Of a DNA stretch of 47,213 nucleotides, positions 6,379 through 32,804 are shown piece by piece. Where the stretch lies: the IMG/VR virus record IMGVR_UViG_3300046450_000575, positions 1 to 47,213 of that record; one strand, 5' to 3'. The notes beneath the pieces are model-generated. The model saw only the letters and a list, made by a program, of their open reading frames with translations, was not told the origin of the DNA and searched no databases. How positions within the stretch are numbered: the stretch's first letter is position 1; the number at the start of each line of letters is the position of its first letter. The stretch is from a virus. A program made the position numbers and the translations under genes.

Positions 6379-6555
6379 TTAGATCACAACATAGCATAAG
6401 ACTAAGATACCTAAGAGTACCATCCAATAGTATCTCCTATTCCTTCTCTCTTGTCTTAGTTGTGGGTTGGTGAATTCTTCTTTCTTCCTATTAAGTCCTC
6501 TCTCTATGAATCTCTCCATCTCTCTACCGATCTTTCTGACTATCCAACTAAACAT
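6379..6555 (-). CDS. Small membrane-anchored protein (58 aa)
   Basis: MFSWIVRKIGREMERFIERGLNRKKEEF opens an amphipathic, very basic protein that ends with a transmembrane helix (YYWMVLLGILVLCYVVI). This is a tail-anchored layout. The ATG at 6555 overlaps the end of the preceding oxygenase-like gene by 8 bp, which favours it over an upstream start at 6642 inside that gene. Function unknown. Confidence 0.6.
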   Translation of the reverse strand: MFSWIVRKIGREMERFIERGLNRKKEEFTNPQLRQERRNRRYYWMVLLGILVLCYVVI

Positions 6556-7264
6556 CTGATTGTTTCCGTTTGAAGTATAAGAATCGTCTTGTTGATGATT
6601 CACCTTGGTTGTATTGTACGTCTTCTTTGTGATGGTCTGCATTTAGGTAGACATCCATCGCCATGGAGATTCTTGGTGTTCGGTAGATATTGTTCTTGAC
6701 TCCGTGTTCTACTTGATGACCTACGATGTGTAACTCTCCGTGGATATTGGGGATGGGTTCGTTTCGGTAGTGTGTGTAACTAGGTTGTTCTCCCTGTATA
6801 AAGAGATTGAGTGCGTAGAAATTCTGTAGTTCGTCTCGTTGTGGGTCTACTCTGTCAATCTCGTATTCGTACTCTTCTGTTGTGAGTTGATCTTTGTATT
6901 CTTCTATGAGATCAGTAGGAAAGTAGCCGACCGTTCCGTGGTGGTGTGTAGGTAGTCCTTGTCCTTGGTAGAGGATGTTACCCCATGCTTGGATGCCTAA
7001 TTCGTTAGAATCTTTGAATTGGGGAAGCTCAAAGATTCTATCGGGTATATTCAGGGGTCTTATGTCGGGATGTCTGAGTAGGTTATAGACGAGGTATTGT
7101 GCGGTTAACCCTGTGTACCCTGTCTCTTCGTTCTGTGGGTTGGATAAGTTGAGTATCTTGGATTCGTCCCGCGTAAGTATGTGTGCTATATGACGGCATT
7201 CGTCTTCACTCAGAAAGTCGGTAACTCTTACGTGTAGAAAGGGGTCAGCAGTGACAACACTCAT
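6548..7264 (-). CDS. Putative 2-oxoglutarate/Fe(II)-dependent oxygenase (238 aa)
   Basis: The C-terminal half fits the double-stranded beta-helix pattern of 2OG oxygenases: ILYQGQGLPTHHHGTVGYF (first His cluster, H107-H109), a strand with FYALNLFIQG, then VGHQVEHGVKNNIYRTPRISMAMDVYL with candidate distal His187 and Arg195/198. The first motif is HHH rather than the usual HxD/E, so metal binding is less certain. Such proteins hydroxylate small molecules, proteins or nucleic acids; the substrate is unknown. It is one of eight oxygenase-like genes in the window. Confidence 0.55.
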   Translation of the reverse strand: MSVVTADPFLHVRVTDFLSEDECRHIAHILTRDESKILNLSNPQNEETGYTGLTAQYLVYNLLRHPDIRPLNIPDRIFELPQFKDSNELGIQAWGNILYQGQGLPTHHHGTVGYFPTDLIEEYKDQLTTEEYEYEIDRVDPQRDELQNFYALNLFIQGEQPSYTHYRNEPIPNIHGELHIVGHQVEHGVKNNIYRTPRISMAMDVYLNADHHKEDVQYNQGESSTRRFLYFKRKQSDV

Positions 7265-7274
7265 ACTTTTATTC

Positions 7275-8198
7275 CTAACTACCTATCCACCATGTACGGA
7301 AATAGGTGTCTGACTTGGGTATCTCAGCTCCGTTGTTCGTATCTGCGTAGAGGAATCGTACTAATGGGGATATCGTTCTCCACTCATGGCCATAGGATAG
7401 ATAGTCTGCAGTCATATCCTCGGTGTTATGTGATAACGTCCATTCTGCAGGAAAGAAGCATTCTACATTCTCTTTCCAATCTGAGTTGAGTGAATCGTTT
7501 GATGTCTTGTCATTGATGTAATACTTACCGAAATGACCACAGCCTGTGGGAATGATAATACCCTTTAGATTGTCTTCAATAAACCCTTGGACGTTAGTAC
7601 CGTATTGTTCTTGTACTGCAGTCGGGTCTACATCGAATAGGTCTTTGAGATATAAGTGATCTTGGTCATGCCATGCACAATACCAGTCATTGTACGTATT
7701 AATATTATTCTCTTCAGTCCACCATTTATTCGGCATACTCATATAAGGGAGTTTTTCTGTTTCGATTCGTGCCAGTGTTTCGGTGTCTAACAGAGCTCTT
7801 AATGTCTTAGGTATTTCATCAACTTCTCCTGCAGGGGGAATAGCAGCTAATAGAACCGTCTGACATAGATCAAGGGGAATTATATTCGGGTGATAATATA
7901 TGCTCTTACCGAAAGTGTTCTCAACACTACCAACGAAGTTGAATAAGTCTAATCTGTACCATGCTTCATCTTGAATGTCGTCTCTTGGGGTGCATTCAAT
8001 AACTTGGATGTCGGGTAACAACCCTTCTCCGTCCATCGTGTGACAAAGATAGTTAACTGACATCATATCCATTGCAACTAAATCCAATCTCTTGGCTTTT
8101 AATCGAATGACAGCGGAGTTGACATCTTCTGCTGTAGTGGTTCCGAACTTGGGGATGATGATGTTGCAGTTATTGCGTTGAAAGGTCATGTCTGTCAT
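7275..8198 (-). CDS. Hypothetical protein (307 aa)
   Basis: A soluble, Trp- and His-rich protein (for example YNDWYCAWHDQDHLYLKDLF and IIIPTGCGHFGKYYINDK) without a membrane segment or a nucleotide-binding motif I can recognise. It has its own late-type promoter at 8231-8238 and precedes the oxygenase-like gene by 10 bp. The pair may act together. ATG at 8198 or at 8189 (MTFQRN) can start it. I do not assign a function. Confidence 0.7.
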   Translation of the reverse strand: MTDMTFQRNNCNIIIPKFGTTTAEDVNSAVIRLKAKRLDLVAMDMMSVNYLCHTMDGEGLLPDIQVIECTPRDDIQDEAWYRLDLFNFVGSVENTFGKSIYYHPNIIPLDLCQTVLLAAIPPAGEVDEIPKTLRALLDTETLARIETEKLPYMSMPNKWWTEENNINTYNDWYCAWHDQDHLYLKDLFDVDPTAVQEQYGTNVQGFIEDNLKGIIIPTGCGHFGKYYINDKTSNDSLNSDWKENVECFFPAEWTLSHNTEDMTADYLSYGHEWRTISPLVRFLYADTNNGAEIPKSDTYFRTWWIGS

Positions 8199-8777: not shown

Positions 8778-8867
8778 TGGCGGAAGATATAGGATTCGAA
8801 CCTATGATACCGATAAAGGTATGCTGGTTTTCAAGACCAGTGCATTCAACCACTCTGCCAATCTTCC
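8778..8867 (-). tRNA. tRNA-Ser (anticodon UGA), CCA encoded
   Basis: The minus-strand 90 bases fold as a class II tRNA. The acceptor stem is GGAAGAT/ATCTTCC with discriminator G and an encoded CCA (8780-8778). The anticodon stem is CTGGT/ACCAG around loop CTTGAAA, giving UGA. The variable arm is long, with ATACC/GGTAT pairs, and the T arm has GGTTCGAATCC. T4-like phages carry tRNAs to fit their own codon use; UCA serine codons are favoured by A/T-rich genomes. Confidence 0.95.
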
Positions 8868-9152: not shown

Positions 9153-9401
9153 CTATTTGGTTTTTTTCGTCTTTGGTTTTGCCTTACGGTAGTTCTTGGT
9201 CTTCACTGGTTCCACTGGTGGTGGTACATCCATTGTGTATTTGACCTCGACCTTCTTAGGGGCTCTCTTTTTGTAAACTTTCTTTTTAGACTCGTCTACA
9301 TTTGGTGTTGATTTGTCGTCTGCAATAAATCGACCCTTGTCGTCTCTTGCTCTGACCCATTCAAATCCAAAGAAGTCTGTGATGTTATTCCACCATCCCA
9401 T
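9153..9401 (-). CDS. Conserved marine T4-like phage protein, Lys-rich (82 aa)
   Basis: MGWWNNITDFFGFEWVRARDDKGRF followed by ADDKSTPNVDESKKKVYKKRAPKK and a Lys/Pro-rich tail. I recognise this plan from short proteins of marine T4-like phages: WW...FFGF start, then RxRDxKGRFxADDxSTPxVxE, then a basic tail. Function is unknown; the tail suggests nucleic acid binding or capsid association. It follows the porin gene by 12 bp and has no promoter of its own that I can see. Confidence 0.65.
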   Translation of the reverse strand: MGWWNNITDFFGFEWVRARDDKGRFIADDKSTPNVDESKKKVYKKRAPKKVEVKYTMDVPPPVEPVKTKNYRKAKPKTKKTK

Positions 9402-9413
9402 GATATTCTCCTA

Positions 9414-10025
9414 CTAAAATGAATACTCGATTCCGAATGTTAGTGAGTCCACTGCAGTGTCTTCCAACACGTTCTGTCCTACCAACATATAGAATGTCGT
9501 ATCTTTAATTGTCTTAGCACCTCTCATCATATAATATGAGTCGTTGCCCTGTCTATCGAATGTCCCATAGATGAACTTTGCGTCCACCAATGGTACGAAC
9601 CATAGATCATAGGTCACTTCACCATATATGTCATGAGTGTCTAAGTCCTGAAATCCAGTGATGGACAATCCACCCACTGAAACTGATGCGTATACTTCTT
9701 CAACTGAATCGTATACACTATCCCACACATATCGAATGTATCCGACATCTAATGAGACATTGTCTGTTATTGATAGGTCATATCCACCGTAATAGTTGAG
9801 TTCTCGTGATGTAGTCTCTCCTGTAACGTTGACCTCGGAACCCCATACCCCTAGGTATAGACCTTCCGTCTCTGCGTGTAAACCGAATGATTTAACAGGT
9901 TTGCCTGACTGAGATTGACCTCTCCAAATGTAGTCACTTGAGTAACCTACAAATCCACTGACATCGGCAAATGTCGGTGTTGAAAATAGCATTAATGATA
10001 ATGCTGTTAATAATAATTTATTCAT
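9414..10025 (-). CDS. Outer-membrane porin-like protein (TorF/Gcw_chp family)
   Basis: Residues 1-20 (MNKLLLTALSLMLFSTPTFA) are a Sec signal peptide with a signal peptidase I site before DVSG. The mature 183 residues show alternating aromatic beta strands typical of an outer-membrane barrel: SSDYIWRGQSQS near the N-terminus, LYLGVWGSEV, ELNYYGGYD, and a C-terminal GIEYSF ending in Phe, the signal for BAM insertion. SDYIWRGxSQ and the LG(V/I)WGS word are hallmarks of the TIGR02001/Gcw_chp bacterial proteins. A phage gene for a host outer-membrane protein suggests envelope remodelling or block of superinfection. It has a late-type motif and AGGAAGG Shine-Dalgarno upstream. Confidence 0.85.
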   Translation of the reverse strand: MNKLLLTALSLMLFSTPTFADVSGFVGYSSDYIWRGQSQSGKPVKSFGLHAETEGLYLGVWGSEVNVTGETTSRELNYYGGYDLSITDNVSLDVGYIRYVWDSVYDSVEEVYASVSVGGLSITGFQDLDTHDIYGEVTYDLWFVPLVDAKFIYGTFDRQGNDSYYMMRGAKTIKDTTFYMLVGQNVLEDTAVDSLTFGIEYSF

Positions 10026-10044
10026 AATATATCCTTCCTATAGT

Positions 10045-10052
10045 TATTTATT
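10045..10052 (-). promoter_or_regulatory. Late-type promoter AATAAATA before the porin gene
   Basis: Minus-strand AATAAATA followed by ACTATAGGAAGGATATATT and the ATG. It overlaps the TAA of the preceding oxygenase gene. Here a strong Shine-Dalgarno (AGGAAGG) lies between motif and start. Confidence 0.5.
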
Positions 10053-10695
10053 GTTGTTTAAAACGTATATTCCCAGCGACACTGATACGTTCACCCCCAC
10101 AATAGAAGGGGTACACTGAGTGTCTCAACCAACTAGGGAAGACCAATAGGTCACCCTGCAGTGGAAAATGACTGAATGTAGACACGTTCAAGAATTGAGT
10201 CTCTCCATAGTGCAGTTCAATGTGACCTGCCATGGGTGTAACTGGCATTGGGCCTGCAGCAGTAGGAGCCTCTTTATTCGTGTCGTATTTGTTGTCGATT
10301 GCATCTTCATATTTTACAGTGTTCTTAGTGTAAAAGACGAAAGAGAACAGACCATCATGTGAATGAATTGGATTGAACTCGGCATTGTTTGCTACGTTCA
10401 CCCATAGCCCATCGATTTCAAGATGTTCTTTGGGTATGCCTAGTTGACATTGATCTACCAGTACCATAACATGATTCATGATATGATCTTTTGTGTCATC
10501 GGTGACTATATCTTCAATAATTAACTGTTCTTCTACTCTTCCTGCAAGTAGTCCACCAACATTGTGATCTTTAGACCCTCTCCGTTGCTCTATACAGTCG
10601 GTTACATGACCTAGATGGTCAGGGTCGATTGCTCCAATATATAGAGGTGGCCCGAATGGACTGATCACTGGCTGATAGTAGTTGTCATCATTCAT
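10048..10695 (-). CDS. 2OG-Fe(II) oxygenase family protein (215 aa)
   Basis: It fits the phage/marine family TIGR02466 (2OG-FeII_Oxy_5). LWVNVANNAEFNPIHSHDG gives the proximal metal motif (H111 with H113 or D114), and GDLLVFPSWLRHSVYPFYCGGERISVAGN gives distal His192 and the 2OG-binding Arg203. Family members of this type are common in T4-like marine phages, but their substrate is not known. It lies in a run of oxygenase genes and precedes the porin gene. Cytoplasmic, no signal peptide. Confidence 0.82.
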   Translation of the reverse strand: MNDDNYYQPVISPFGPPLYIGAIDPDHLGHVTDCIEQRRGSKDHNVGGLLAGRVEEQLIIEDIVTDDTKDHIMNHVMVLVDQCQLGIPKEHLEIDGLWVNVANNAEFNPIHSHDGLFSFVFYTKNTVKYEDAIDNKYDTNKEAPTAAGPMPVTPMAGHIELHYGETQFLNVSTFSHFPLQGDLLVFPSWLRHSVYPFYCGGERISVAGNIRFKQQ

Positions 10696-11172: not shown

Positions 11173-11775
11173 TTATTTTATGACAACCTTAGCAAATGTA
11201 GGGCCGTCTGTTTGTTCTTCTGTTGGTTGATCATCATCACCGTGGTGATAATTATCACTGTTTTGGTTTTCATTAAACCAAACACCCAACATCCATTTTT
11301 CCCCTGCAGTAATAGGTAACACTCCCACGCTTCTCAGACTAGGATTGTTAACGATTAACATATCTCCAACTTTGTCGTTGATGATACTGCTGTCTACCAC
11401 TAGATTACCTCCATGGTAACCCTCTGATAGATTGAATAACACTAGACCAGTGTCTTCTTCTTGGGATGTGTTAAATTCATATGAATCCACTGGATAGCAT
11501 ATGATCTGTATATGACTAGGCTCTTCGAAACACTCACCATCGGGTAAAAAATCTTCTACCCAAGAATAAATCTTTTCGAAATCGGCATCGCCTACTTCAT
11601 CGGGGACAATGTTGTACACCTCAATCTCACTATGGTCTACCTTAAACCTAGAGGTTCCACCTTCAATTTCGTCTTCTTCTTCGGTGAATGCTTGTCTTAC
11701 TGCTAGTGCTATGACTGCATTACATTGCTCTTCGTCTAGTACTCTGTTACCGAGTGTTAATATATTATCTTGCAT
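11173..11775 (-). CDS. Degenerate 2OG-oxygenase-like protein (200 aa)
   Basis: The second half keeps the prolyl-hydroxylase-like scaffold: GLVLFNLSEGYHGGNLVVD, GDMLIVNN and ITAGEKWMLGVWF align with the usual LVYLN..F.GG, G..L.F and T.G.R..L..WF. The metal ligands are not there: the HxD position reads NTSQEED and the distal His is replaced in SLRSVGVLPIT. It is probably not an active oxygenase and may have become a binding or partner protein for the gene just upstream, which it overlaps by one base. Confidence 0.6.
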   Translation of the reverse strand: MQDNILTLGNRVLDEEQCNAVIALAVRQAFTEEEDEIEGGTSRFKVDHSEIEVYNIVPDEVGDADFEKIYSWVEDFLPDGECFEEPSHIQIICYPVDSYEFNTSQEEDTGLVLFNLSEGYHGGNLVVDSSIINDKVGDMLIVNNPSLRSVGVLPITAGEKWMLGVWFNENQNSDNYHHGDDDQPTEEQTDGPTFAKVVIK

Positions 11776-12470
11776 TAGTTATTTCCTGTTGATGGGTGGA
11801 AGAATTGTACTTGACTGATTCTCCAGTTATCTCCACTATATTTAGTGTAGTCTCCGATATAAGCTCCGTGCAATCTATTGCCTGGGAATACAACACATCG
11901 ATTGAATTTAGCAGGGATGATTGTATTTAAATCAAAGTCGTCTTGACATGGGTAGAGTAGTCCATGGTGTTCATCGTTAGATATCCACTCACCTTCGTAG
12001 ACTGCAGTTCCACCACTCTCCTGTTTATCCAAATAAACGAGCATGTTTAGTGTTGCAAGTTTGTCGGGAGTGTCAAATGACGAATCAGTGTGTGGGTAGT
12101 GTTGAAATGCAGGGTCGAATTGATTAATCGTTTGGAACACATTGAATTCGTGAATCATATCCCAATTGTATTTTCCCTTATGGAAATGTTTTCTGCATAT
12201 GTCCAATAGTCGTTCCATCTCACCAAAATATTTTCTAGTGGGGTGGCCGACCTTATCAACGATTCTGCAATCATTGTAGTCAATTCCGTTAGGGGATTCT
12301 CTCTCCGTAGAGTATTTCCACATTGGGAATTGACGAGCCATGAGGAAGTCGTGTATGTCTTCAGGATTCTCATAGAAGTTGTCTATGGTAATTGTCAACC
12401 CATCAAATGTGGGCTCCCACTTTTCAGACATCTTGAATAGTTCATCGTGAATGTATGTTTTACTTACCAT
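11775..12470 (-). CDS. 2OG-Fe(II) oxygenase-like protein, DUF6445 type (231 aa)
   Basis: HYPHTDSSFD gives H127 and D129; LATLNMLVYLDKQESGGTAVYEG follows as in DUF6445; NRCVVFPGNRLHGAYI gives H201, and NWRISQVQFF gives R217. The full catalytic set of the 2OG fold is thus present. The start at 12470 has AGAGGA 8 nt upstream and overlaps the previous gene by 11 bp. The substrate is unknown; the same family occurs in marine bacteria and phages. Confidence 0.78.
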   Translation of the reverse strand: MVSKTYIHDELFKMSEKWEPTFDGLTITIDNFYENPEDIHDFLMARQFPMWKYSTERESPNGIDYNDCRIVDKVGHPTRKYFGEMERLLDICRKHFHKGKYNWDMIHEFNVFQTINQFDPAFQHYPHTDSSFDTPDKLATLNMLVYLDKQESGGTAVYEGEWISNDEHHGLLYPCQDDFDLNTIIPAKFNRCVVFPGNRLHGAYIGDYTKYSGDNWRISQVQFFHPSTGNN

Positions 12471-13374
12471 GGTTTATGTCCTCTTGAAGGAAGTTATAAG
12501 ACATGTCTCGTCCTGTTGTATTATTGTCTAAGTCTGTCTTATGCCATAAATTAAACGATATACTGATACGTTCATATCCAGTCTCTATACCGTTTCTTAT
12601 AGAGGGTACTGCGTGTTGTAGGTAAGAGGGCCAGAGTAAGAAGTCACCTGTGTTCGGGTATACATTCATTTCTGACTCAGTTCCATTCGTACCATTAAAA
12701 TCTATATTGTTCATCCCATCTCTTTTTACAAGACGATCAACTTGTTGTTGACCTGACAATGCCATGATTGATGGTGATGTGAACTTAATCGGTTGTGACC
12801 CTTCGACTGCCTTGACGTAGTATGTTCCACTCATCTTACAATTGGTATGATTGTGTGTCTCATGATGGTGTTCACCAGTGTACACATTAACCCATGCAAA
12901 TAGATGTATGTCATTCCTTGATAGGTGACTCACTGGTATATTCAACATATTCTGTATGTACGAGATATAGGTGTCCTTACATATATCTGAAAAGTCCTTG
13001 AACCATTCTAGGTTGTGGGTCTCTGTACGTACATCCTCATCAAAATAAGTCGTGTAATTACGTCCTAGATCGTGTTCTGCACGTTCTTTAACCTTACTGA
13101 CTAGTCGTCTGCAATCCACCGCAATGTGGTCATGAGGTAAGTTGAAATGTCCCCTTAAAAAAGGAGTAGCAAATACTGGTATTATCTCACCATCAGCTGG
13201 ACGAAAATCTATCGAGGGTAATTGATTTTCCACACGTTTAGCAGCTTCAAGATCATCTGATTCATCAAACTCTGTAGGTGCAAGATATCCTTTTTCATCC
13301 GTATTTGTTTCATTAAATGTACTTTGTACATTATTAGAAACATTTTGGGGTGGCATTATACCCTTTGGTCTCAT
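12460..13374 (-). CDS. 2OG-Fe(II) oxygenase family protein, TIGR02466 type (304 aa)
   Basis: After a polar N-terminus of about 60 residues the protein shows IIPVFATPFLRG, LFAWVNVYTGEHHHETHNHTN (candidate ligands H174/H176), then GDFLLWPSYLQHAVPS (H254) and GYERISISFN (R269). These match the 2OG-FeII_Oxy_5 family, like the 215-aa protein encoded at 10048-10695; the two are distant paralogues. The gene overlaps the spanin-like lipoprotein gene by 4 bp upstream. Substrate unknown. Confidence 0.83.
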   Translation of the reverse strand: MRPKGIMPPQNVSNNVQSTFNETNTDEKGYLAPTEFDESDDLEAAKRVENQLPSIDFRPADGEIIPVFATPFLRGHFNLPHDHIAVDCRRLVSKVKERAEHDLGRNYTTYFDEDVRTETHNLEWFKDFSDICKDTYISYIQNMLNIPVSHLSRNDIHLFAWVNVYTGEHHHETHNHTNCKMSGTYYVKAVEGSQPIKFTSPSIMALSGQQQVDRLVKRDGMNNIDFNGTNGTESEMNVYPNTGDFLLWPSYLQHAVPSIRNGIETGYERISISFNLWHKTDLDNNTTGRDMSYNFLQEDINHGK

Positions 13375-13853
13375 TTCTTCTTCACCTCTGCACCTATTGC
13401 TGGTTCGTCTTTGATGGTCACATTTCTGTAATATACAATGACCTCACCTACTTGTTGAATGTAACGTCTGAGTTCTTGGTTGTTCTGAATCATCACCTTG
13501 TAGTCACCAACAGTTGTTGCAACAAATACGATGTCACCACTATTCTGTTTCTTCATCTCATCGATGAATCTGTCAAGGTAAGTGTAACCAACTGGCCACT
13601 CGGGATTCTCTCTGTCCTTCAGTTCACAAGACTTTGGTCTTTTGTCTTCTACCTTCTTACAGTTGTTTGCAATTCTAGCTTCGGATACGACAAACCATTT
13701 AGGTGCTGTCAAGTCTAAAGGTCTTGGTAATGTGGGTTGGATGATTTCGATTTCGATAGGTTTACTGACTATCTCAATCGTCTTCGAGTTAAATAACGAG
13801 CAACTACTGACCGTTAGTGCTAGTGTCAAGATCGCTAATGTTCTTAGTGTCAT
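13371..13853 (-). CDS. Lipoprotein, probable outer-membrane spanin (Rz1-like, 160 aa)
   Basis: Residues 1-18 (MTLRTLAILTLALTVSSC) form a lipoprotein signal with lipobox VSSC; the mature protein starts at Cys18. A Pro/Ile-rich stretch (KPIEIEIIQPTLPRPLDL) precedes a small folded domain. The start lies inside the upstream gene for a single-TM coiled-coil protein, overlapping by 50 bp in another frame. This is the usual layout of i-spanin/o-spanin pairs, which fuse inner and outer membranes at lysis. At 160 residues it is longer than a classical Rz1, as in other marine T4-like phages. Confidence 0.68.
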   Translation of the reverse strand: MTLRTLAILTLALTVSSCSLFNSKTIEIVSKPIEIEIIQPTLPRPLDLTAPKWFVVSEARIANNCKKVEDKRPKSCELKDRENPEWPVGYTYLDRFIDEMKKQNSGDIVFVATTVGDYKVMIQNNQELRRYIQQVGEVIVYYRNVTIKDEPAIGAEVKKK

Positions 13854-14187
13854 TTTCTATTCCCTCCAATACTTCAACCGTTCCTTTGTTAAATCTGAGT
13901 TCCATAAGGCCTGGTTTGACTTGTGCCAGTCTCTCAAAATTATGTTTTGATAGAATTTCTAAGTACTTTGACTTTTCTGCTTCTATCGCATTGTTCCTTC
14001 GAGTCATGTTCTGTAGAGAAGCAGTCTGTACTGCAAAACTCTCCTGTACCACTCTAAGTGTTTCTTTCTGTTCTTCTACTGCACCTTCTAACTTAATGTT
14101 ATTTCCAGCAAGTATTTGGTTCTCAGTGTAGAGGTAGTAACTACCCAATCCGAGAACAAGTATGATTCCAATCAATAACTGATTCAT
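13804..14187 (-). CDS. Probable inner-membrane spanin (Rz-like, 127 aa)
   Basis: MNQLLIGIILVLGLGSYYLY is an N-terminal transmembrane anchor. The periplasmic part (about residues 25-90) has heptad-like coiled-coil character (VEEQKETLRVVQESF, NNAIEAEKSKYLEILSKHN). This matches i-spanins. The 3' end overlaps the lipoprotein gene by 50 bp. With the T4-type lysozyme at 42549-43001 it would complete the lysis set; no holin was recognised in the window. Confidence 0.68.
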   Translation of the reverse strand: MNQLLIGIILVLGLGSYYLYTENQILAGNNIKLEGAVEEQKETLRVVQESFAVQTASLQNMTRRNNAIEAEKSKYLEILSKHNFERLAQVKPGLMELRFNKGTVEVLEGIENDTKNISDLDTSTNGQ

Positions 14188-14188
14188 T

Positions 14189-14455
14189 CTATATCTCCTC
14201 TATTTTATAGTCTAGGCCTGATGATGATCTAATCTCAATCATCTTCTTGGTTTCCCAATCTCTAAACTTTAAATGTTTTTCTTTTTGTATAATAAGTTTA
14301 CGTGCAGTGTAAACGGACTTATACATTTGTCCACCCACAGTGCTTGATTCCCTATACACGGTTATTTGGTATTCTCCTACGAAGAGGTTGTGTATCCACC
14401 CTGCAAATCGTTTGCAGACACCCCATAAGCCTTTACCGAAATTCTTTCTACGCAT
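14189..14455 (-). CDS. Conserved marine phage protein (88 aa)
   Basis: MRRKNFGKGLWGVCKRFAGW, then FVGEYQITVYRESSTVGG and ARKLIIQKEKHLKFRD. The FVGEYQxTxxxESST word is one I associate with small proteins of marine T4-like phages. The ATG at 14455 has GGAG at an ideal 8-nt distance, better than the GTG at 14464, and overlaps the preceding oxygenase stop. Likely beta-rich and soluble. Function unknown. Confidence 0.6.
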   Translation of the reverse strand: MRRKNFGKGLWGVCKRFAGWIHNLFVGEYQITVYRESSTVGGQMYKSVYTARKLIIQKEKHLKFRDWETKKMIEIRSSSGLDYKIEEI

Positions 14456-15047
14456 TGTAGTCACTCCATCCTGTCAATATTATTTTCTCTCCACTCAATG
14501 GTGGATTTCCTCTGTGGACGTGTGTAAAGTGTGCAGGCCACACTAGTAACGTCCCTCTTGTTGGTTTAAATCTGCATCGTTGGTGAAGGAACTCTGTCTC
14601 CCCACCTTCTTCTACATCATTCATATACAACATCCATGCAAGAACACGATGTTTTGTTATATGTGAGTCTTGTTCATAATGCCATATATGATACCCCTCA
14701 CCCTGCAGTGTCTTTTGTATCTTTCCGTCCACTGATAACAATTCGATATCGTCACGCATACCATATGCTTGTTTATACATCGGTATAATTTCATCGTTTA
14801 GTTGTTGAAAGAATTCTGTTTGGTGTAATGCTCTAACAGTATCCTTTAGTTGATGACAAGTCTGAAATGTAAAGGATTCGTCTGATTTTTCTAGGATATC
14901 ATGAGATAGGTCGTAGTCCTCTCTTCGTGAGGTGTGACCAAGTGACGAGTAATATTCGAATGTATCCGTGATATTATTCATTAGTTCTTCATCTATTGCA
15001 TCGTGAAACACACCTATGTGATCACTCCGCTTTTCAAACTCTGCCAT
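14448..15047 (-). CDS. 2OG-Fe(II) oxygenase (prolyl-hydroxylase-like, 199 aa)
   Basis: A clear prolyl-4-hydroxylase-type fold: GYHIWHYEQD gives H123 and E125 (HxE instead of HxD), AWMLYMNDVEEGGETEF is the standard strand, and GTLLVWPAHFTHVHRGNPPLSGEKIILTGW gives the distal His (176 or 178) and the 2OG-binding basic residue K188. Start at 15047 (MAEFEKR) preferred to 15068. A late motif and a 5' leader hairpin precede it. Target unknown; close relatives are common in marine phages. Confidence 0.82.
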   Translation of the reverse strand: MAEFEKRSDHIGVFHDAIDEELMNNITDTFEYYSSLGHTSRREDYDLSHDILEKSDESFTFQTCHQLKDTVRALHQTEFFQQLNDEIIPMYKQAYGMRDDIELLSVDGKIQKTLQGEGYHIWHYEQDSHITKHRVLAWMLYMNDVEEGGETEFLHQRCRFKPTRGTLLVWPAHFTHVHRGNPPLSGEKIILTGWSDYNA

Positions 15048-15068
15048 AATTATACCTATATGCAACAA

Positions 15069-19639: not shown

Positions 19640-20608
19640 TTATTTGTTTCTCGGTTTTTCTTTAGCGAGTGATAAGTGTGTGTAATTGTTTACGAAGTCG
19701 GATGGTTTAAACTCGTCTATCAGGCCTCTGTTGTTCCAACTATCCATAGCCTTAACAAATTCGGGTCTTACCTTATCTCTATCTTGTTCCTCTGAGTGAT
19801 ATATATCGTTATACCCATCGTAACAATAAACAGGAGCTCTACGTCCATCAGCACCTCGTTTATTTTGTATTGTTCCTTGAGGCATATTCTGTAAACTTCC
19901 TGCAATGTTCACAAAGTGAAGGAACATATGGTAACTGTGGATACCTAGGAATCTGTCTCTGTAATGTACTGCATTAGGGCCTTGATATAGTAACACATCA
20001 CCCACTTCAAGTGAGATAGAGTGTGCCTCTCGTTTACGTGATGGGATTCCTTGTGTTAAATCAAATAGTTCTTGACCATTACCATCCCAATCGACCCAGT
20101 TTCTTGAGTTGTCCACCCAAATCTTCCACGGTTTTCCATCGTCTGATTCGTATCCTAAACATATTGTCGTGGATATTTCACAAGATGGTCTGTCATGATG
20201 AGCTTTGAGGTATGCACCCCTGTCGTACTTCCTAGTGTATGCATAGGTAGGACAAAGTTTAATGTCCAATACATCATCTAGGGCATTATGCATCCATGCG
20301 TGTAGTCCGACTGCAGGAGGAAATTGGTAACATCCATCTGATTTGAACAATGAGTCTTTAGGGGAATCTTGAATGATGTCATTTTCTTTATAAAAAAAGG
20401 TTTCATACCATCGTTCATTCCTTTCAATCGTCTTCCATGAGTCTAGTGTCATCTTAATGATGTCTTTGGGTATGAAGTTCCTAAGAACCACATATCCGTT
20501 TTGCATAAATTCCCATGTCACCTCATTCGTATAGGATTGAACCTTAACATCACCATGTGGGTCTATAGCAACTAATTTTATGTCTTTCTTATCATATTGC
20601 ACAGGCAT
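19640..20608 (-). CDS. 2OG-Fe(II) oxygenase-like protein placed between nrdA and nrdB (322 aa)
   Basis: CPTYAYTRKYDRGAYLKAHHDRPSCEISTTICLGY is the HxD region (H137 and D139 counted from the ATG at 20608), followed by KPWKIWVDN and SLEVGDVLLYQGPNAVHYRDRF with distal His215. The fold is that of 2OG oxygenases acting on amino acids or proteins. A start at 20626 is also open, but 20608 gives a 17-bp overlap with nrdA. Position inside the nrd operon suggests a role in nucleotide or phage DNA metabolism, or in modifying an RNR-linked protein; unproven. Confidence 0.78.
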   Translation of the reverse strand: MPVQYDKKDIKLVAIDPHGDVKVQSYTNEVTWEFMQNGYVVLRNFIPKDIIKMTLDSWKTIERNERWYETFFYKENDIIQDSPKDSLFKSDGCYQFPPAVGLHAWMHNALDDVLDIKLCPTYAYTRKYDRGAYLKAHHDRPSCEISTTICLGYESDDGKPWKIWVDNSRNWVDWDGNGQELFDLTQGIPSRKREAHSISLEVGDVLLYQGPNAVHYRDRFLGIHSYHMFLHFVNIAGSLQNMPQGTIQNKRGADGRRAPVYCYDGYNDIYHSEEQDRDKVRPEFVKAMDSWNNRGLIDEFKPSDFVNNYTHLSLAKEKPRNK

Positions 20609-22883
20609 CGCAGTCTTCCCCATCATCTATAATCTCACCTTGTGGTAAGGGTTCATCTTTAATCACGTCTTCAGTCTTACCATCCATAGTGTTTTGGTAG
20701 TAAGATGTTTTCCATCCATATTTGTAAGTATTCAGTAAGTCTTTTGCCATGACTGATACTGGTACTTCATTGTTATCAAAATTTTCAGGGTTGTAACTCC
20801 AGTTACCACTGATTGCTTGGTCAAAGAACTTCTGCATTACTGCAACGACTTTGATGTATCCCTCGTTATCAGGCATATCCCATAGTAATGTATAGTTGTT
20901 CTTTAACATAGAGTACTGAGGTACTACTTGTTTAAGTGTTCCTTTCTTGCTCTTCTTGACACTAAGGTAGTCTCTAGGTGGTTCTATGCCGTTAGTTGCA
21001 TTAGAAACGACTGAGGACGACTCTGAGGGCATCTGTGCAGTAAGGGTGGAGTGTCTTAGTCCGTGAACCTTGATTCTTGTTCTTAGTTTATCCCAATCCA
21101 TTTTTAGGACATTAGGTACGATTGTATCAACTTCTTTCTTATAGTGGTCGATGGGTAATAGTCCTTGTGCATACTTAGTTCTGTTGAAGTATTCACATGG
21201 GCCCTTCTCGGATGCAACTTGATTTGATGCACATAGTAAATGATACTGAAATTGTTCGGTCAAATCATGCACCAATTGATGTGCTTCGGGGTCATCGTAT
21301 TTAACCTTATTCTTTGCAAGGAAATGAGCAAGACCAATGTAACCAATTCCTAGTGATCGTCTTGCAAGAGTTGACCTCTTTGCAGCTTCTACTGGGTATT
21401 CTTGGTAATCAATTAGTTCTTCCAATCCTCTTACTGCAAGCTCACATAAACCTTGGAGTTCATCCATCTTAATGATGCCTACATTGATTGCACTTAGAAT
21501 GCATAGTGCAATCTCACCTTCACCATCGATATGTGTGATAGGGTCGGTGGGAAGAGTAATCTCTTGACATAGGTTACTCATGTAAACTTTGTCTTGGAAA
21601 CTACTATGGGAATTGCAATGGTCTATATTCATAATATAAATCCTACCTGTCTCAGCTCTCTCTTTCAACATAGCCGTAAACAGTTCCCTTGCACTAATCT
21701 TCGTTTTAGATACTGAAGTTGCTCTCTCATACTTTTCATAAAGTTCATCAAAGTCTTCAGTTCCAAATGCCTCATACAAGCCCGGCACTTCGTGGGGTGA
21801 GAATAGTGTGATGTCTTCGTTCTTCAAGAATCTCTTATAGAACAGTTCAGATAACTGGATAGAATAATCTAGTTTTCTAACTCTATTATCCTCTGTTCCT
21901 TTGTTATTCTTGAGGACGATGATATCACCGATCTCTTGGTGCCAGATAGGGAAATGTACTGTTGCACTTCCCCCTCTCACACCATTCTGAGTACAACATC
22001 TTACTGTAGTCTCAAACTTTTTAAGAAATGGTATAACACCAGTGTGCTGGACTTCGCCACCACGGATTTTGCTACCAAGTCCTCGGATTCTTCCTGCGTT
22101 AATTCCAATACCAGCTCTTTGGGCCACGTAACGTCCGATGGCCATGTCACTGGAAAATATGCTGTCGAGGGAATCGGCTGAGTCAACCAAAACGCAACTC
22201 GCAAACTGTCGAAGTGGTGTTCTGACCCCTGCCATAATTGGGGTGGGTATGTTAATTTTGTACGTGGATATTGCATCATAATACCTTTTGATATATTCTA
22301 AACGATTGTCTTCGGGGTAGTTTCTAAATAATGTCATTGAGATTAACATATACATGAACTGAGGCGTCTCAAACAAAGTGCTATCTGACCTGTCCTGTAC
22401 TAGATACTTGTCTACGATCTGTTGTAAACCAGCATAGGTGAATGTCACATCTCGTGAGTGTTTGATCATCCGATCAATATATTCTATTTCTTCTTTGGTG
22501 TACGAATTAAGGATATCCTTATCATAAACACCCTTCTTGATGTTCCTTTTGATGAGTTCATACAGTGGTGGATAGATTGTTGAGTCTTGCCACTTAGTGT
22601 TGAATACAGATTTCTGTACTCCGAATAGTAATAGTCGGGCAGCAACGAACTGGTAATTTGGATGTTCCAAACTAATTAAATCCGATGCTGACTTGACTAA
22701 TATTTGTTGAATGTCTTTTGTGGTTATTCCATCAAAGAATTGAAGACCACTGTTCATCTCAACCAGTGATTCTGATACTCCTGTAACGTCTCTACAAGCC
22801 TTCTCCACCATCTTATGAATCTTATCTAAGTCAATGTCTACCCTGCTTCCGTCTGACTTAAGTACTCTAAATGGTGCGTTCAT
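20592..22883 (-). CDS. nrdA: Class Ia ribonucleotide reductase, alpha subunit
   Basis: 763 residues, close in length to E. coli NrdA (761). An N-terminal ATP-cone (FRVLKSDGSRVDIDLDKIHKMV) is complete. Active-site features are ASCVLV (first redox Cys), NLCQEITLP with the thiyl-radical Cys, and ALCILSAINVG with the second redox Cys. The C-terminal CDACAI holds the shuttle pair that is re-reduced by glutaredoxin. PSESSSVVSNATNGIEPPR is the conserved phosphate-binding loop. It reduces NDPs to dNDPs for phage DNA synthesis. Confidence 0.97.
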   Translation of the reverse strand: MNAPFRVLKSDGSRVDIDLDKIHKMVEKACRDVTGVSESLVEMNSGLQFFDGITTKDIQQILVKSASDLISLEHPNYQFVAARLLLFGVQKSVFNTKWQDSTIYPPLYELIKRNIKKGVYDKDILNSYTKEEIEYIDRMIKHSRDVTFTYAGLQQIVDKYLVQDRSDSTLFETPQFMYMLISMTLFRNYPEDNRLEYIKRYYDAISTYKINIPTPIMAGVRTPLRQFASCVLVDSADSLDSIFSSDMAIGRYVAQRAGIGINAGRIRGLGSKIRGGEVQHTGVIPFLKKFETTVRCCTQNGVRGGSATVHFPIWHQEIGDIIVLKNNKGTEDNRVRKLDYSIQLSELFYKRFLKNEDITLFSPHEVPGLYEAFGTEDFDELYEKYERATSVSKTKISARELFTAMLKERAETGRIYIMNIDHCNSHSSFQDKVYMSNLCQEITLPTDPITHIDGEGEIALCILSAINVGIIKMDELQGLCELAVRGLEELIDYQEYPVEAAKRSTLARRSLGIGYIGLAHFLAKNKVKYDDPEAHQLVHDLTEQFQYHLLCASNQVASEKGPCEYFNRTKYAQGLLPIDHYKKEVDTIVPNVLKMDWDKLRTRIKVHGLRHSTLTAQMPSESSSVVSNATNGIEPPRDYLSVKKSKKGTLKQVVPQYSMLKNNYTLLWDMPDNEGYIKVVAVMQKFFDQAISGNWSYNPENFDNNEVPVSVMAKDLLNTYKYGWKTSYYQNTMDGKTEDVIKDEPLPQGEIIDDGEDCDACAI

Positions 22884-25809: not shown

Positions 25810-25885
25810 TGGAGCCCGCAACAAGAGTCGAACTCGTGACATCTTCATTACAAGTGAAGTGCTCTACCAACTGAGCTATACGGGC
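25810..25885 (-). tRNA. tRNA-Thr (anticodon UGU), CCA encoded
   Basis: The 76-base minus-strand sequence folds as a standard tRNA. Acceptor stem GCCCGTA/TGCGGGC, discriminator U, encoded CCA; D arm GCTC...GAGC; anticodon stem CTTCA/TGAAG around CTTGTAA, anticodon UGU; T arm with GTTCGACTC. It reads ACA codons, which fit an A/T-rich phage. Confidence 0.95.
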
Positions 25886-29137: not shown

Positions 29138-31393
29138 TTAGTCTTTGAACTTAATCCCAATCTTAGGTAAGGTATTCTCACCAAAGTTTGCATGGTCTAG
29201 TGCTTTCTTAACATCTTTATGCTTTGAAAGACCCTTCTTAAGTTTTTCAATCTTCTTGATTGCAAAACTCATAGCACCACCATGATCGAGTGCAATTTTT
29301 ACTGCTAGTTTTGCAAATTCATCAGTGACTTTGTTCTTTCTGAAGTATACAGAAATCTCTTGTCCAGTCAATTTTTGACCGTCCATATTAGGTTTTTCAT
29401 TTAAGTTCTGAGACTCTTCTTTGATTCCTTTTCCTACAGCAGTATCGTATAACTTCTTACCATCTGCACCTTTTAGAGAAGTTGCATCTGTTGGGTTAGC
29501 GACTGCCTTGTATTCTGAACCTTCTTTCATACCCATAATACGTTGTGCAAGACCAACAAGTTTTTTCACATCGGAATTTTCCATTTGTGCTTTATTCTTG
29601 TCACTCACCTTTTCGTATGCTTGAGTGATAACACTTGCAGTGAACATGTCAACCATGATTCCACCGATTTTCTTTGCACCCTTAGTGTTAACGATTTCTT
29701 GAAAATCAGGTATTAGGTTCTTACCTTCACTGAGTACTTCTTCTATATTATCCATAGTGTCTCCTTCTACCGATTCGGTTCTTCTCTTCGGTTTTTGACT
29801 GTAATAGTCTTTTAAAAATTCTTTTGCTTGTGCAAGTGAAACTGGATAGTTTTTTGCAATGTCTTTTGCTGTCATACCTTGTTGAATGTCTAGGAATAGG
29901 TCACCCATTTTCCCTTCGTCTAGGAAGATGCCTTGTTGGATTGCAGATTCCATAACGAATGATTCATCGAAATGATAACCTTGTCCAGCAGTAGATGGGT
30001 CTCCGTATGTTGACTTACCTCGGACAACACCATCAAGTTTTCTTAGTTGTGACTTAGTTCCATCCAGTTGTACTAGTGTAACACCACCACTACCTTTTGT
30101 GAACTTGACTTTCAACTTCATCAACTTGGCTGCACTTGTGAATGCATCTGATTCGGGTTTCTGAATACCTTTAACTTGGTATACGATCTTCTCTTCATCT
30201 AATGATTCCTTAATACCGTTCTTCTTTCTCCATATAAGAACAGTTTGTGCATCATTGATTTGATCAGCGTAGTTTCCTTTACCCTCGGTGTTTTTCTTAT
30301 TGGAAGGATTTGCCTTCATCGCTTTCTGTGAATCTTTTTGGATGTATTCCAATGATGCTTTTGGTAAATCCCAAAAACGAACATTTTCTATGTTAGCCCC
30401 ACCTCGTGGTTTACCGTCACCCATACTCCACTTTTCTTCTAAATTAATAGACTCATTCATCTTTTGGATATCGCCTGGCTTCATTCCTGGCCATTTAGAA
30501 TCAGGATGAATATTCTTCTGACCCTTTGGTGGTTTAACTTTCCACACTATAGCTTGCTTTGCTTCGTTTGTTGATTCCTCAAAACCTTCGTCCCAATCAT
30601 CTGAAGCACCTCGTGGTTTTTGAGTAAGATACTTGATAGCACCTTTTCTCAATACTGCATCAGACTTATTTTTGTTAGCAGGATACTTCTTCATGATCAT
30701 CATGGTGTGGACAACCTTCTTTTCGAACTCTTTTGGAGAATCTTTCTTTTCTTCGTCTAATGATTCCTTAATACCCATCTTAGCCGCCTTGGAAACAGTC
30801 ATCAAAGTTTGATTGTCACTAGAGGTGAATGCACTATTACTGGGTTTTCTTTTAAACTTCTTAATGATCTTACGATTCTGAACAAGAACCCATGCTTCCG
30901 AAGATTCGTCAATTTCATCAGACTCACCCATTCGTTTACCCTGAGTTGCACTGGTATTGGTCGGAAACTTAGTGTCCTTGACTGCAACCATGTAACCACT
31001 CATATTTGCTTTCGGGTCACCCATGTTCTTTGCACCTTTCTTTAGTGCCTCTGAACTGTTACGTGCCTTGACTATTACACTTCGACCTTTCTTTAATTTG
31101 TTTATGCTCTTGGTGACTGTGACTTTCCAAAAATCCATGCCTTCCATGAATGCTTCGACTTCTTCGTTCACATCTCTTACAGTGAAATCTTCATTGTAAG
31201 GGAATCCTTTTAAAGGGTTGTCAAAAACCTGAGAGAAATTCTTTGATCTTTCTTTCTTCTTCTCTACATTTTTTGCAGCTGCAAGTTTTAGATACTCATC
31301 AACCGTCTGGCCTGGGGTATCACCTTTGTATGCAGCTGTAATTTCTGTAGTACCCACTTCGTGGACACCATTGTTTTTCTTATTTCCTGACAT
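29138..31393 (-). CDS. Large head-associated polyprotein-like protein (751 aa)
   Basis: A Lys/Glu-rich protein that reads as a chain of small basic domains joined by acidic linkers. The linkers contain sites that fit the T4 prohead protease rule (I/L-x-E, cut before S/G/A): IDE163|S, SLDE214, SLDE400, VME482|S, LDE493|G, LSE556|G. GIKESLDEE occurs twice (residues 207-215 and 393-401), and the segment after the first and second linker looks duplicated in plan. This suggests a precursor cut into several internal head proteins or peptides. Related long proteins occur in marine T4-like phages. It overlaps the following HNH-linked gene by 14 bp. No enzyme motif seen. Confidence 0.66.
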   Translation of the reverse strand: MSGNKKNNGVHEVGTTEITAAYKGDTPGQTVDEYLKLAAAKNVEKKKERSKNFSQVFDNPLKGFPYNEDFTVRDVNEEVEAFMEGMDFWKVTVTKSINKLKKGRSVIVKARNSSEALKKGAKNMGDPKANMSGYMVAVKDTKFPTNTSATQGKRMGESDEIDESSEAWVLVQNRKIIKKFKRKPSNSAFTSSDNQTLMTVSKAAKMGIKESLDEEKKDSPKEFEKKVVHTMMIMKKYPANKNKSDAVLRKGAIKYLTQKPRGASDDWDEGFEESTNEAKQAIVWKVKPPKGQKNIHPDSKWPGMKPGDIQKMNESINLEEKWSMGDGKPRGGANIENVRFWDLPKASLEYIQKDSQKAMKANPSNKKNTEGKGNYADQINDAQTVLIWRKKNGIKESLDEEKIVYQVKGIQKPESDAFTSAAKLMKLKVKFTKGSGGVTLVQLDGTKSQLRKLDGVVRGKSTYGDPSTAGQGYHFDESFVMESAIQQGIFLDEGKMGDLFLDIQQGMTAKDIAKNYPVSLAQAKEFLKDYYSQKPKRRTESVEGDTMDNIEEVLSEGKNLIPDFQEIVNTKGAKKIGGIMVDMFTASVITQAYEKVSDKNKAQMENSDVKKLVGLAQRIMGMKEGSEYKAVANPTDATSLKGADGKKLYDTAVGKGIKEESQNLNEKPNMDGQKLTGQEISVYFRKNKVTDEFAKLAVKIALDHGGAMSFAIKKIEKLKKGLSKHKDVKKALDHANFGENTLPKIGIKFKD

Positions 31394-32804
31394 TTGGTAA
31401 TGCTCCCTTTTCCTTTAATTTCTTCATTCTTAGTCTAGGTTCTTTCCTGTTATAGTTTTGAGACACTAGGGATAAGTTGTTCTTATCATTGTTTAGTGGG
31501 TTGTTATCCTTGTGATGAACATCTTTACCATCACCAGCTTTGGCCTTACCCTCTTTTTCCATTTGTCTACGAGCTCTTTTTCTCGCAGCGTTTCTTTCCA
31601 TCTGTTCGGGTCTACCACCGTAGTTTTCCCTTTCTTTCTTGTAATCTCTGTCTTCTTCGACTTCAGTCTCTTCTTTTCTACCCTTTTCGTATTTCTTGAT
31701 AGAATCTCTTGATATCTTAATCATTCTCTTATCGTGTTTCTTAAGAGTTGCTTTCTGTCGTTTGTCCTTTTCATCTGTGTACCGTGACTCTTCAACTTCT
31801 TCTTTTTTTGATTTTATTGATTTTAATTTTGACATTGCCTTTTTGAAAATGCTTGGTTCTTTATTTTTAACCTCGTTTTCCAACTTCTTACTGACATCTA
31901 TCTCTGCACTAGTTGGTTTATAGTTTTTATCCTTTTTGAATTTGGAAATCAGTTTACCAACTGTTGCCGTTGTTGACGCTTTAGCATCTCTATGCAACTT
32001 GGGAGTTTGAGGTGATGATATCATTTGATACATTATCAAAGCAGGAAGCACCACCATAGCACCAGTACCCCATATCGCAAAAAACAAGGCGTTCATATCT
32101 TCATCAAGTTCACGGTCTTCGGTTACAGTCTCTTCACCAAACTTAAGGAACATCTTACCTTTATCTTGTTTTTCGTCTGTAACTTTATGTCCAACCATTG
32201 CACCTAGAGTGTTGATCATACCCAATCCTCTTTCAGGATTCTTAGTGTATTCTTGATCTAGTTTCGTTTCAATTTTTCTTGTGATGACTTTTAAGATGTC
32301 ACGAACACTTGCTACGAGTTTACCTTCGTCCAAGTCAAACGACTCATTCTTTTTACCATACTTCTTGACTAGTGCAGCGTGTTCTTTTGCACGATCTTTT
32401 GCACGTTTGTCTAAGTCTACACCACTCTTCTTCAATCGGGTGGTCAGTCTTTTAGATGCGGATACCTCATCCAACTCTTGTTTCCAAGTGTCGATAAAGT
32501 TTAATAACCCTTCGCTTTGTTTTTCATTTGATTTTCTGTCGGCATCACGTTTAGATTTAATTGCATCATCGTCTTTTTCTTTACTATCGGAATCTGATTG
32601 TCGTGCAACTTCTCGTTCATGTCGAGTCGTAAGAGATTCAAGGTCTCGTTCTTGTGAGTCCTTAAGTTTCTCTGTCTCTGCAGCGTGTTTTGCTTTGAGT
32701 TCTGCAGAGGCAACTGCATCTTCCATCATGAAATCTTCAACTATAGAATTGAAATCCATTGATGCATCTTTTGTTACTTTAAGTAGTTGGTCTAATAAAT
32801 CCAT
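31380..32804 (-). CDS. Head-associated protein with C-terminal HNH-like motif (474 aa)
   Basis: N-terminal long coiled coil (residues about 30-110, KAKHAAETEKLKDSQ...), LDE|G cleavage-like site near residue 160, a central hydrophobic helix (LFFAIWGTGAMVVLPALIMYQM), and a basic C-terminus ending in GKDVHHKDNNPLNNDKNNLSL. That last part fits an HNH motif (HH...N...N) as in phage-borne endonucleases, with Arg/Lys-rich tails around it. It starts 5 nt after CTAAATA. Whether it cuts DNA is unknown; HNH units also occur as DNA-binding parts of packaging proteins. Confidence 0.66.
   Translation of the reverse strand: MDLLDQLLKVTKDASMDFNSIVEDFMMEDAVASAELKAKHAAETEKLKDSQERDLESLTTRHEREVARQSDSDSKEKDDDAIKSKRDADRKSNEKQSEGLLNFIDTWKQELDEVSASKRLTTRLKKSGVDLDKRAKDRAKEHAALVKKYGKKNESFDLDEGKLVASVRDILKVITRKIETKLDQEYTKNPERGLGMINTLGAMVGHKVTDEKQDKGKMFLKFGEETVTEDRELDEDMNALFFAIWGTGAMVVLPALIMYQMISSPQTPKLHRDAKASTTATVGKLISKFKKDKNYKPTSAEIDVSKKLENEVKNKEPSIFKKAMSKLKSIKSKKEEVEESRYTDEKDKRQKATLKKHDKRMIKISRDSIKKYEKGRKEETEVEEDRDYKKERENYGGRPEQMERNAARKRARRQMEKEGKAKAGDGKDVHHKDNNPLNNDKNNLSLVSQNYNRKEPRLRMKKLKEKGALPNVRK

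Follow-up and report, generated by a model that had tools for sequence, protein, structure and literature searches.

Why would a T4-like phage carry a gene for a channel of the bacterial outer membrane? The auxiliary genes of phages mostly encode enzymes, or components of transport systems in the inner membrane or periplasm. The channel gene described here lies in a 47,213-base IMG/VR record of a T4-like phage, referred to below at its full length as the window. We asked which family the encoded protein belongs to, how its gene is distributed among phages and bacteria, and which role during infection fits best.

An intact channel gene in a T4-like phage

The window DNA polymerase and NrdA share 48% and 72% identity, respectively, with T4-like cyanophages, and a UvsX-like recombinase, a DnaB-like helicase and a primase are also encoded. 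Similarity to T4-like cyanophages in these two proteins does not fix the host. No isolated-phage matches were found for the window proteins encoded at 7275-8198 and 31380-32804. Two tRNA genes are present, tRNA-Ser(tga) at 8778-8867 and tRNA-Thr(tgt) at 25810-25885. The gene at 19640-20626, between nrdB and nrdA, carries the PHROGs label "ferrochelatase"; this label also falls weakly on oxygenase-like window proteins and may be a transferred misname.

Table 1. Coordinates of the channel gene, its signals and neighboring genes in the window.
Feature	Position	Strand	Details and basis
Channel gene, TorF/Gcw_chp-type, outer membrane	9414..10025	-	203 aa; profiles and model
Signal peptide (predicted), residues 1-20	9966..10025	-	Read by eye; A20 conservation; model helix 3-13
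Mature beta-barrel (predicted), 12 strands, residues 21-203, C-terminal Phe	9417..9965	-	Model; KdgM/NanC nearest folds
Shine-Dalgarno AGGAAGG	10033..10039	-	Sequence; 7 nt upstream of ATG
ATAAATA, resembles late promoter	10045..10051	-	Overlaps stop codon of upstream gene
Upstream neighbor, 2OG-Fe(II) oxygenase	10048..10695	-	Profile matches; outside channel gene
Downstream neighbor, 82-aa basic protein	9153..9401	-	Cluster c38; beside channel in several sister loci
Rz/Rz1-like spanin genes	13371-14187		Window group, few genes from channel, conserved block

The channel gene is an exact open reading frame with an ATG start and no internal stops, and its GC content is typical for the window (Table 1). 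The signal peptide was read by eye as MNKLLLTALSLMLFSTPTFA, with the cut before the D that follows; residue A20 is near-invariant across 59 relatives, and the structural model described below places a helix at residues 3-13. The protein ends in EYSF, and a C-terminal Phe is found in 33 of 36 viral rows as well. The initial annotation, made from the DNA alone, had described an intact frame behind a strong Shine-Dalgarno sequence, a signal peptide, barrel strands and a C-terminal Phe, and all of these held up. Its late-type motif did not. ATAAATA is present upstream, yet it occurs 8 times on the minus strand, where a first-order Markov simulation gives an expectation of 9.9. This is indistinguishable from chance, and only 3 of the 53 listed ORFs have a copy within 80 nt upstream. 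Because of this chance-level copy number, the late-promoter reading was dropped.

The small basic protein downstream has no match in Pfam or PHROG. Genes resembling 2OG-Fe(II) oxygenases crowd around the channel gene, at 6548-7264 (a weak match), 10048-10695, 11775-12470, 12460-13374 and 14448-15068.

Family, predicted fold and channel interior

Hmmscan matched the channel protein to PF09694 (Gcw_chp) with 46 bits against a cut-off of 24 (E 8.3e-12) and to TIGR02001 (TorF family putative porin) with 60 bits against a cut-off of 47.15 (E 2.4e-16). The matched stretches, residues 21-108 and 19-136, cover the N-terminal part of the protein. The family name given in the initial annotation was therefore correct, since both curated cut-offs are exceeded, and a relationship to bacterial porins is recovered by HMM search. 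PF09694 was matched by 58 of 59 rows, phage and bacterial alike. PHROGs gave no match to the window protein up to E 1, and phmmer found no PDB chain up to E 10.

An AlphaFold model built from alignment A7, which comprises 30 phage and 29 bacterial sequences of the family, has a mean pLDDT of 90.3 and a pTM of 0.80, and predicts 12 strands between residues 21 and 202. The best fold matches are the 12-strand porins KdgM, NanC and VhGalP (Z 16.3 to 14.0). VIA-align ranked KdgM first (Z 16.3, rmsd 2.8, 163 residues aligned), followed by VhGalP (Z 15.1) and NanC (Z 14.4), so the model agrees with a KdgM/NanC-type barrel; KdgM was also the top rank in Foldseek. As other barrels reach Z 11-14, the lead of KdgM is modest. 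In sequence, by contrast, these porins share 9-13% identity with the phage protein, and Gcw_chp is its sole Pfam match up to E 1, which places it outside the KdgM/NanC sequence family. The predicted fold in common with KdgM and NanC shows no function.

Eight residues are invariant in the 59 rows, and are thus common to phage and bacterial members; all are predicted to face the lumen (W61, E75, G81, E110) or to lie in loop 1 (Y32, R35, G36, Q39). Predicted lumen positions, assigned along with lipid-facing ones by hydropathy, vary less than the latter, a difference as large arising in 52 of 5000 shuffles for the viral rows and 3 of 5000 for the bacterial rows. In other respects the phage copies differ from their bacterial counterparts. 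The window protein is shorter (203 aa versus mostly 210-255 aa), shows only 22-32% identity to the bacterial members of A7, and belongs to a phage group in which loops 4 and 5 are trimmed, with median lengths of 5 and 5 residues in phage rows versus 13 and 10 in bacterial rows. These extracellular loops were inferred from strand order with both termini placed in the periplasm.

The conserved interior and the short loops bear on whether the barrel masks the receptor, diluting, displacing or hiding it and so excluding superinfection. Such a role would suit a barrel that is surface-exposed by prediction, in a phage that also has matches to a nucleotide-sugar epimerase and a carbamoyltransferase, which are sugar/envelope-type genes; a study of pelagimyophages suggests that other envelope genes serve to avoid coinfection (PMC7029224). 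The predicted extracellular loops are short, however, and two of them, loops 4 and 5, are shortened further in phages, the opposite of a growing shield, while the invariant residues sit in the lumen and loop 1. We consider masking unlikely.

Relatives and gene contexts in phages

Four near relatives were found first, nine with profiles, and then 58 contigs; profiles together with a search via two flanking genes brought the count to 66 IMG/VR contigs from 62 metagenomes, a figure in which partial copies are counted, as is the weak L176-L178 group. The closest, L001, shares 99.9% DNA identity with the window over 12.6 kb, and L002-L004 share 90% protein identity with the window channel. Of the 58 contigs known at that point, 50, mostly fragment records, were searched for hallmarks; T4 gp23 was found in eight, a T4-type polymerase in twelve and a terminase profile in five, two of them weak (E 1e-6 to 1e-7).

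The order of genes around the channel follows at least four distinct contexts across phage contigs, with neighbors named from profile matches or by eye from sequences. In the window group the order is spanins, 2OG oxygenases and channel, and in a second group UvsX, DnaB helicase, channel and ThyX. The channel gene lies directly after gp23 in L149 and L150, whereas in L122-L124 and L176-L178 its neighbors are of the nrdA/nrdB type; the remaining contexts were not assigned to a type. In one phage group (L106-L110, L109 and L113), a sulfotransferase-like protein of 230-245 aa (by eye; cluster c30) adjoins the channel gene. These contexts make it very unlikely that the barrel is a lysis accessory that weakens the outer membrane alongside the Rz/Rz1-like spanins. 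The window-group channel does follow spanin-like genes in a conserved block, but elsewhere it sits between a DnaB-type helicase and thyX, beside gp23, or beside nrdA/nrdB-type genes, with no recognized spanin adjoining.

Presence of the gene varies at fixed sites. Among loci related at the downstream gene 7275-8198, the channel is found in 13 of 17 and is absent from four similar ones (L187-L190). Helicase and ThyX are both visible in 18 of 80 ThyX loci; their junction holds the channel in 4 of the 18, with a gap of 818-900 nt, and lacks it in 12, where the gap is 178-200 nt. Of the four contigs with the channel, two were known from the earlier profile search. In the remaining loci the gap is 10 nt (L273) or 714 nt (L212), the content of the latter looking like a 2OG oxygenase; this alternative slot thus seems filled by the gene class that surrounds the channel in the window. 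Presence and absence at a fixed site is the pattern expected of an exchangeable cargo slot or cassette.

Such patchiness at one locus would also be seen if the channel gene were neutral, or had only recently been captured from a host and was in transit, with no function for the phage. We regard this as highly improbable, because dN/dS is well below 1 in ten phage pairs (0.15-0.41; 0.22 for the window versus L002) and because the gene has many phage contexts, deep viral branches and window-typical GC. We conclude that the channel gene is under purifying selection. Loss of the gene from sister phages together with a damaged frame, which the initial annotation had named as evidence against its reading, was not found; the sisters keep an intact gene.

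A phylogenetic tree with every second bacterial row (39 rows) collects 36 viral rows on a single side (1 change); the support for this branch is 0, so the tree cannot separate one capture by phages from several. The Acinetobacter phage copy described next, L023 and L176-L178 fall on long or isolated branches. Acinetobacter phage AB1I1M-1 (OQ627712), an isolated T4-like phage of 168 kb, carries a Gcw_chp gene annotated as TorF. Its protein shares 33.7% identity with the window protein over 43% of the protein, its branch is long, and the neighbors of the window group are absent beside its gene. No isolated-phage relatives closer than the AB1I1M-1 group were found. A further Gcw_chp gene, in a record named Acinetobacter phage MD-2021a (L179, CAKLQH020000037.1), is flanked by the bacterial chromosome genes fadD, ppa, oprD, dapA and comM and was therefore not counted as a phage case; the record looks mislabeled.

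Bacterial relatives and possible function

A scan of bacterial genomes confirmed at least 378 relatives. The best 80 of these are mostly from Gammaproteobacteria, with 26-43% identity, and a PII gene was detected by motif in the fetched flanks of 23 of these 80 loci. In a less biased set of 56 gammaproteobacterial genomes, sampled evenly across the class to which one genome picked among the matches belongs, 25 carry Gcw_chp (32 genes). Of the 32 genes, 14 have PII or Amt no more than 3 kb away; counted by genome with the center genome left out, the figure is 11 of 24. In all 14 linked cases Gcw_chp is upstream of glnK/amtB and co-directional. The count used all 32 Gcw_chp places, PII only from Gcw_chp genomes and 13 Amt places identified by eye, and short contigs could hide more neighbors of this kind. 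Since each genome spans a few Mb and has a small number of PII genes, we estimate, by reasoning and not by a computed control, that chance linkage would account for well under one case. The order Gcw_chp, glnK, amtB is common in Gammaproteobacteria (e.g., L088, L071 and L093) and is seen in betaproteobacterial loci too. This operon is not mentioned in the available parts of PMC8674442, PMC10155442 and PMC4849787. A porin of another kind is upregulated under ammonium limitation and was suggested to admit ammonium, according to the accessible text of PMC7438415. Shewanella TorF is annotated, in the part of PMC5955497 available, as the outer-membrane porin of a TMAO reductase system; TMAO being a small nitrogen compound, we count this toward a nitrogen link.

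In the phage loci no PII-Amt-porin cassette was found: PF00909 (amtB) matched none of the 50 records searched, most of them fragments, and no PII or Amt motif or adjoining glnK-amtB was seen near the channel copies examined. With amtB and PII lacking from the phage copies, the nitrogen link is drawn from the bacterial relatives only. That the phage copies stand alone, with no cognate transporter, and that the porins nearest in fold, also 12-stranded, admit other small solutes would suit a general permeability aid, a non-selective small pore giving osmotic or nutrient relief with no nitrogen role. The loop-1 motif and the lumen Glu and Trp that phage proteins have in common with glnK-linked bacterial copies suggest instead that selectivity was kept, and we consider such a general pore unlikely.

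Rather than receptor masking, we favor a channel that is delivered by the phage and admits small solutes, perhaps ones containing nitrogen. A channel fits the family assignment, the conserved lumen, the shortened loops, the selection and the cargo-like distribution, and nitrogen solutes are our leading guess, drawn from the bacterial relatives encoded with glnK-amtB. The protein would be made with a signal peptide and exported by Sec, and BAM would insert it, as a 12-strand barrel, into the infected cell's outer membrane. In that position it may let in more small hydrophilic solutes, among which ammonium or other small nitrogen compounds are the likeliest; these could feed the host's own inner-membrane transporters during phage nucleotide and protein synthesis. 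We infer all four elements of this scheme, namely localization, channel activity, nitrogen substrate and infection benefit. We hold tentatively, at a little under even confidence, that the phage places a TorF-type channel in the host outer membrane and thereby raises small-solute entry, with nitrogen compounds the likeliest. The narrower proposal, that a virus-specific TorF branch, exchanged as a cassette in several T4-like lineages, acts as a nitrogen inlet with host AmtB, is possible but doubtful. Ammonium crosses general porins anyway, so a dedicated ammonium channel may be unnecessary. Also weighing against a nutrient channel are the 18 of 32 bacterial genes with no PII or Amt neighbor in view, the low identity to the bacterial members of A7, and the Rz/Rz1-like spanins few genes away, which fit an envelope or lysis role too. 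Of the two functions suggested by the initial annotation, nutrient entry is thus better supported than receptor masking, through the glnK-amtB linkage, the invariant residues of the lumen and loop 1 and the trimmed loops.

Phage-encoded outer-membrane barrels are not new as such. One phage-encoded example is Lc, a general porin from the temperate lambdoid phage PA-2. In BFVD, many phage proteins bear the names of outer-membrane barrels, and the initial view that genes for host outer-membrane proteins are rare in phages was overstated. Curli pore genes occur in pelagimyophages, as stated in the available part of PMC7029224. Viral contigs with a glnK-amtB-ompL porin cassette have been published (PMC8115048, available in part) and resemble our proposal in linking a viral porin to ammonium uptake genes. 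That porin is OmpL, by contrast, and is reported together with Flavobacteriales-type genes on viruses that themselves carry glnK-amtB; the likeness is one of description. Our literature searches found no paper tying the TorF/Gcw_chp family to phages. As far as the literature was searched, three findings are new: how widely the TorF family extends among phages, that it behaves as a cassette, and that it is connected to a bacterial family linked with glnK-amtB.

For a Pfam family that is still listed as having unknown function, the glnK-amtB linkage suggests a role that can be tested. A channel of this kind, recurring in phages, would bring the outer membrane into the set of structures that phages remodel, and if the nitrogen proposal is true, nitrogen entry across the outer membrane would be a phage-controlled step of infection.
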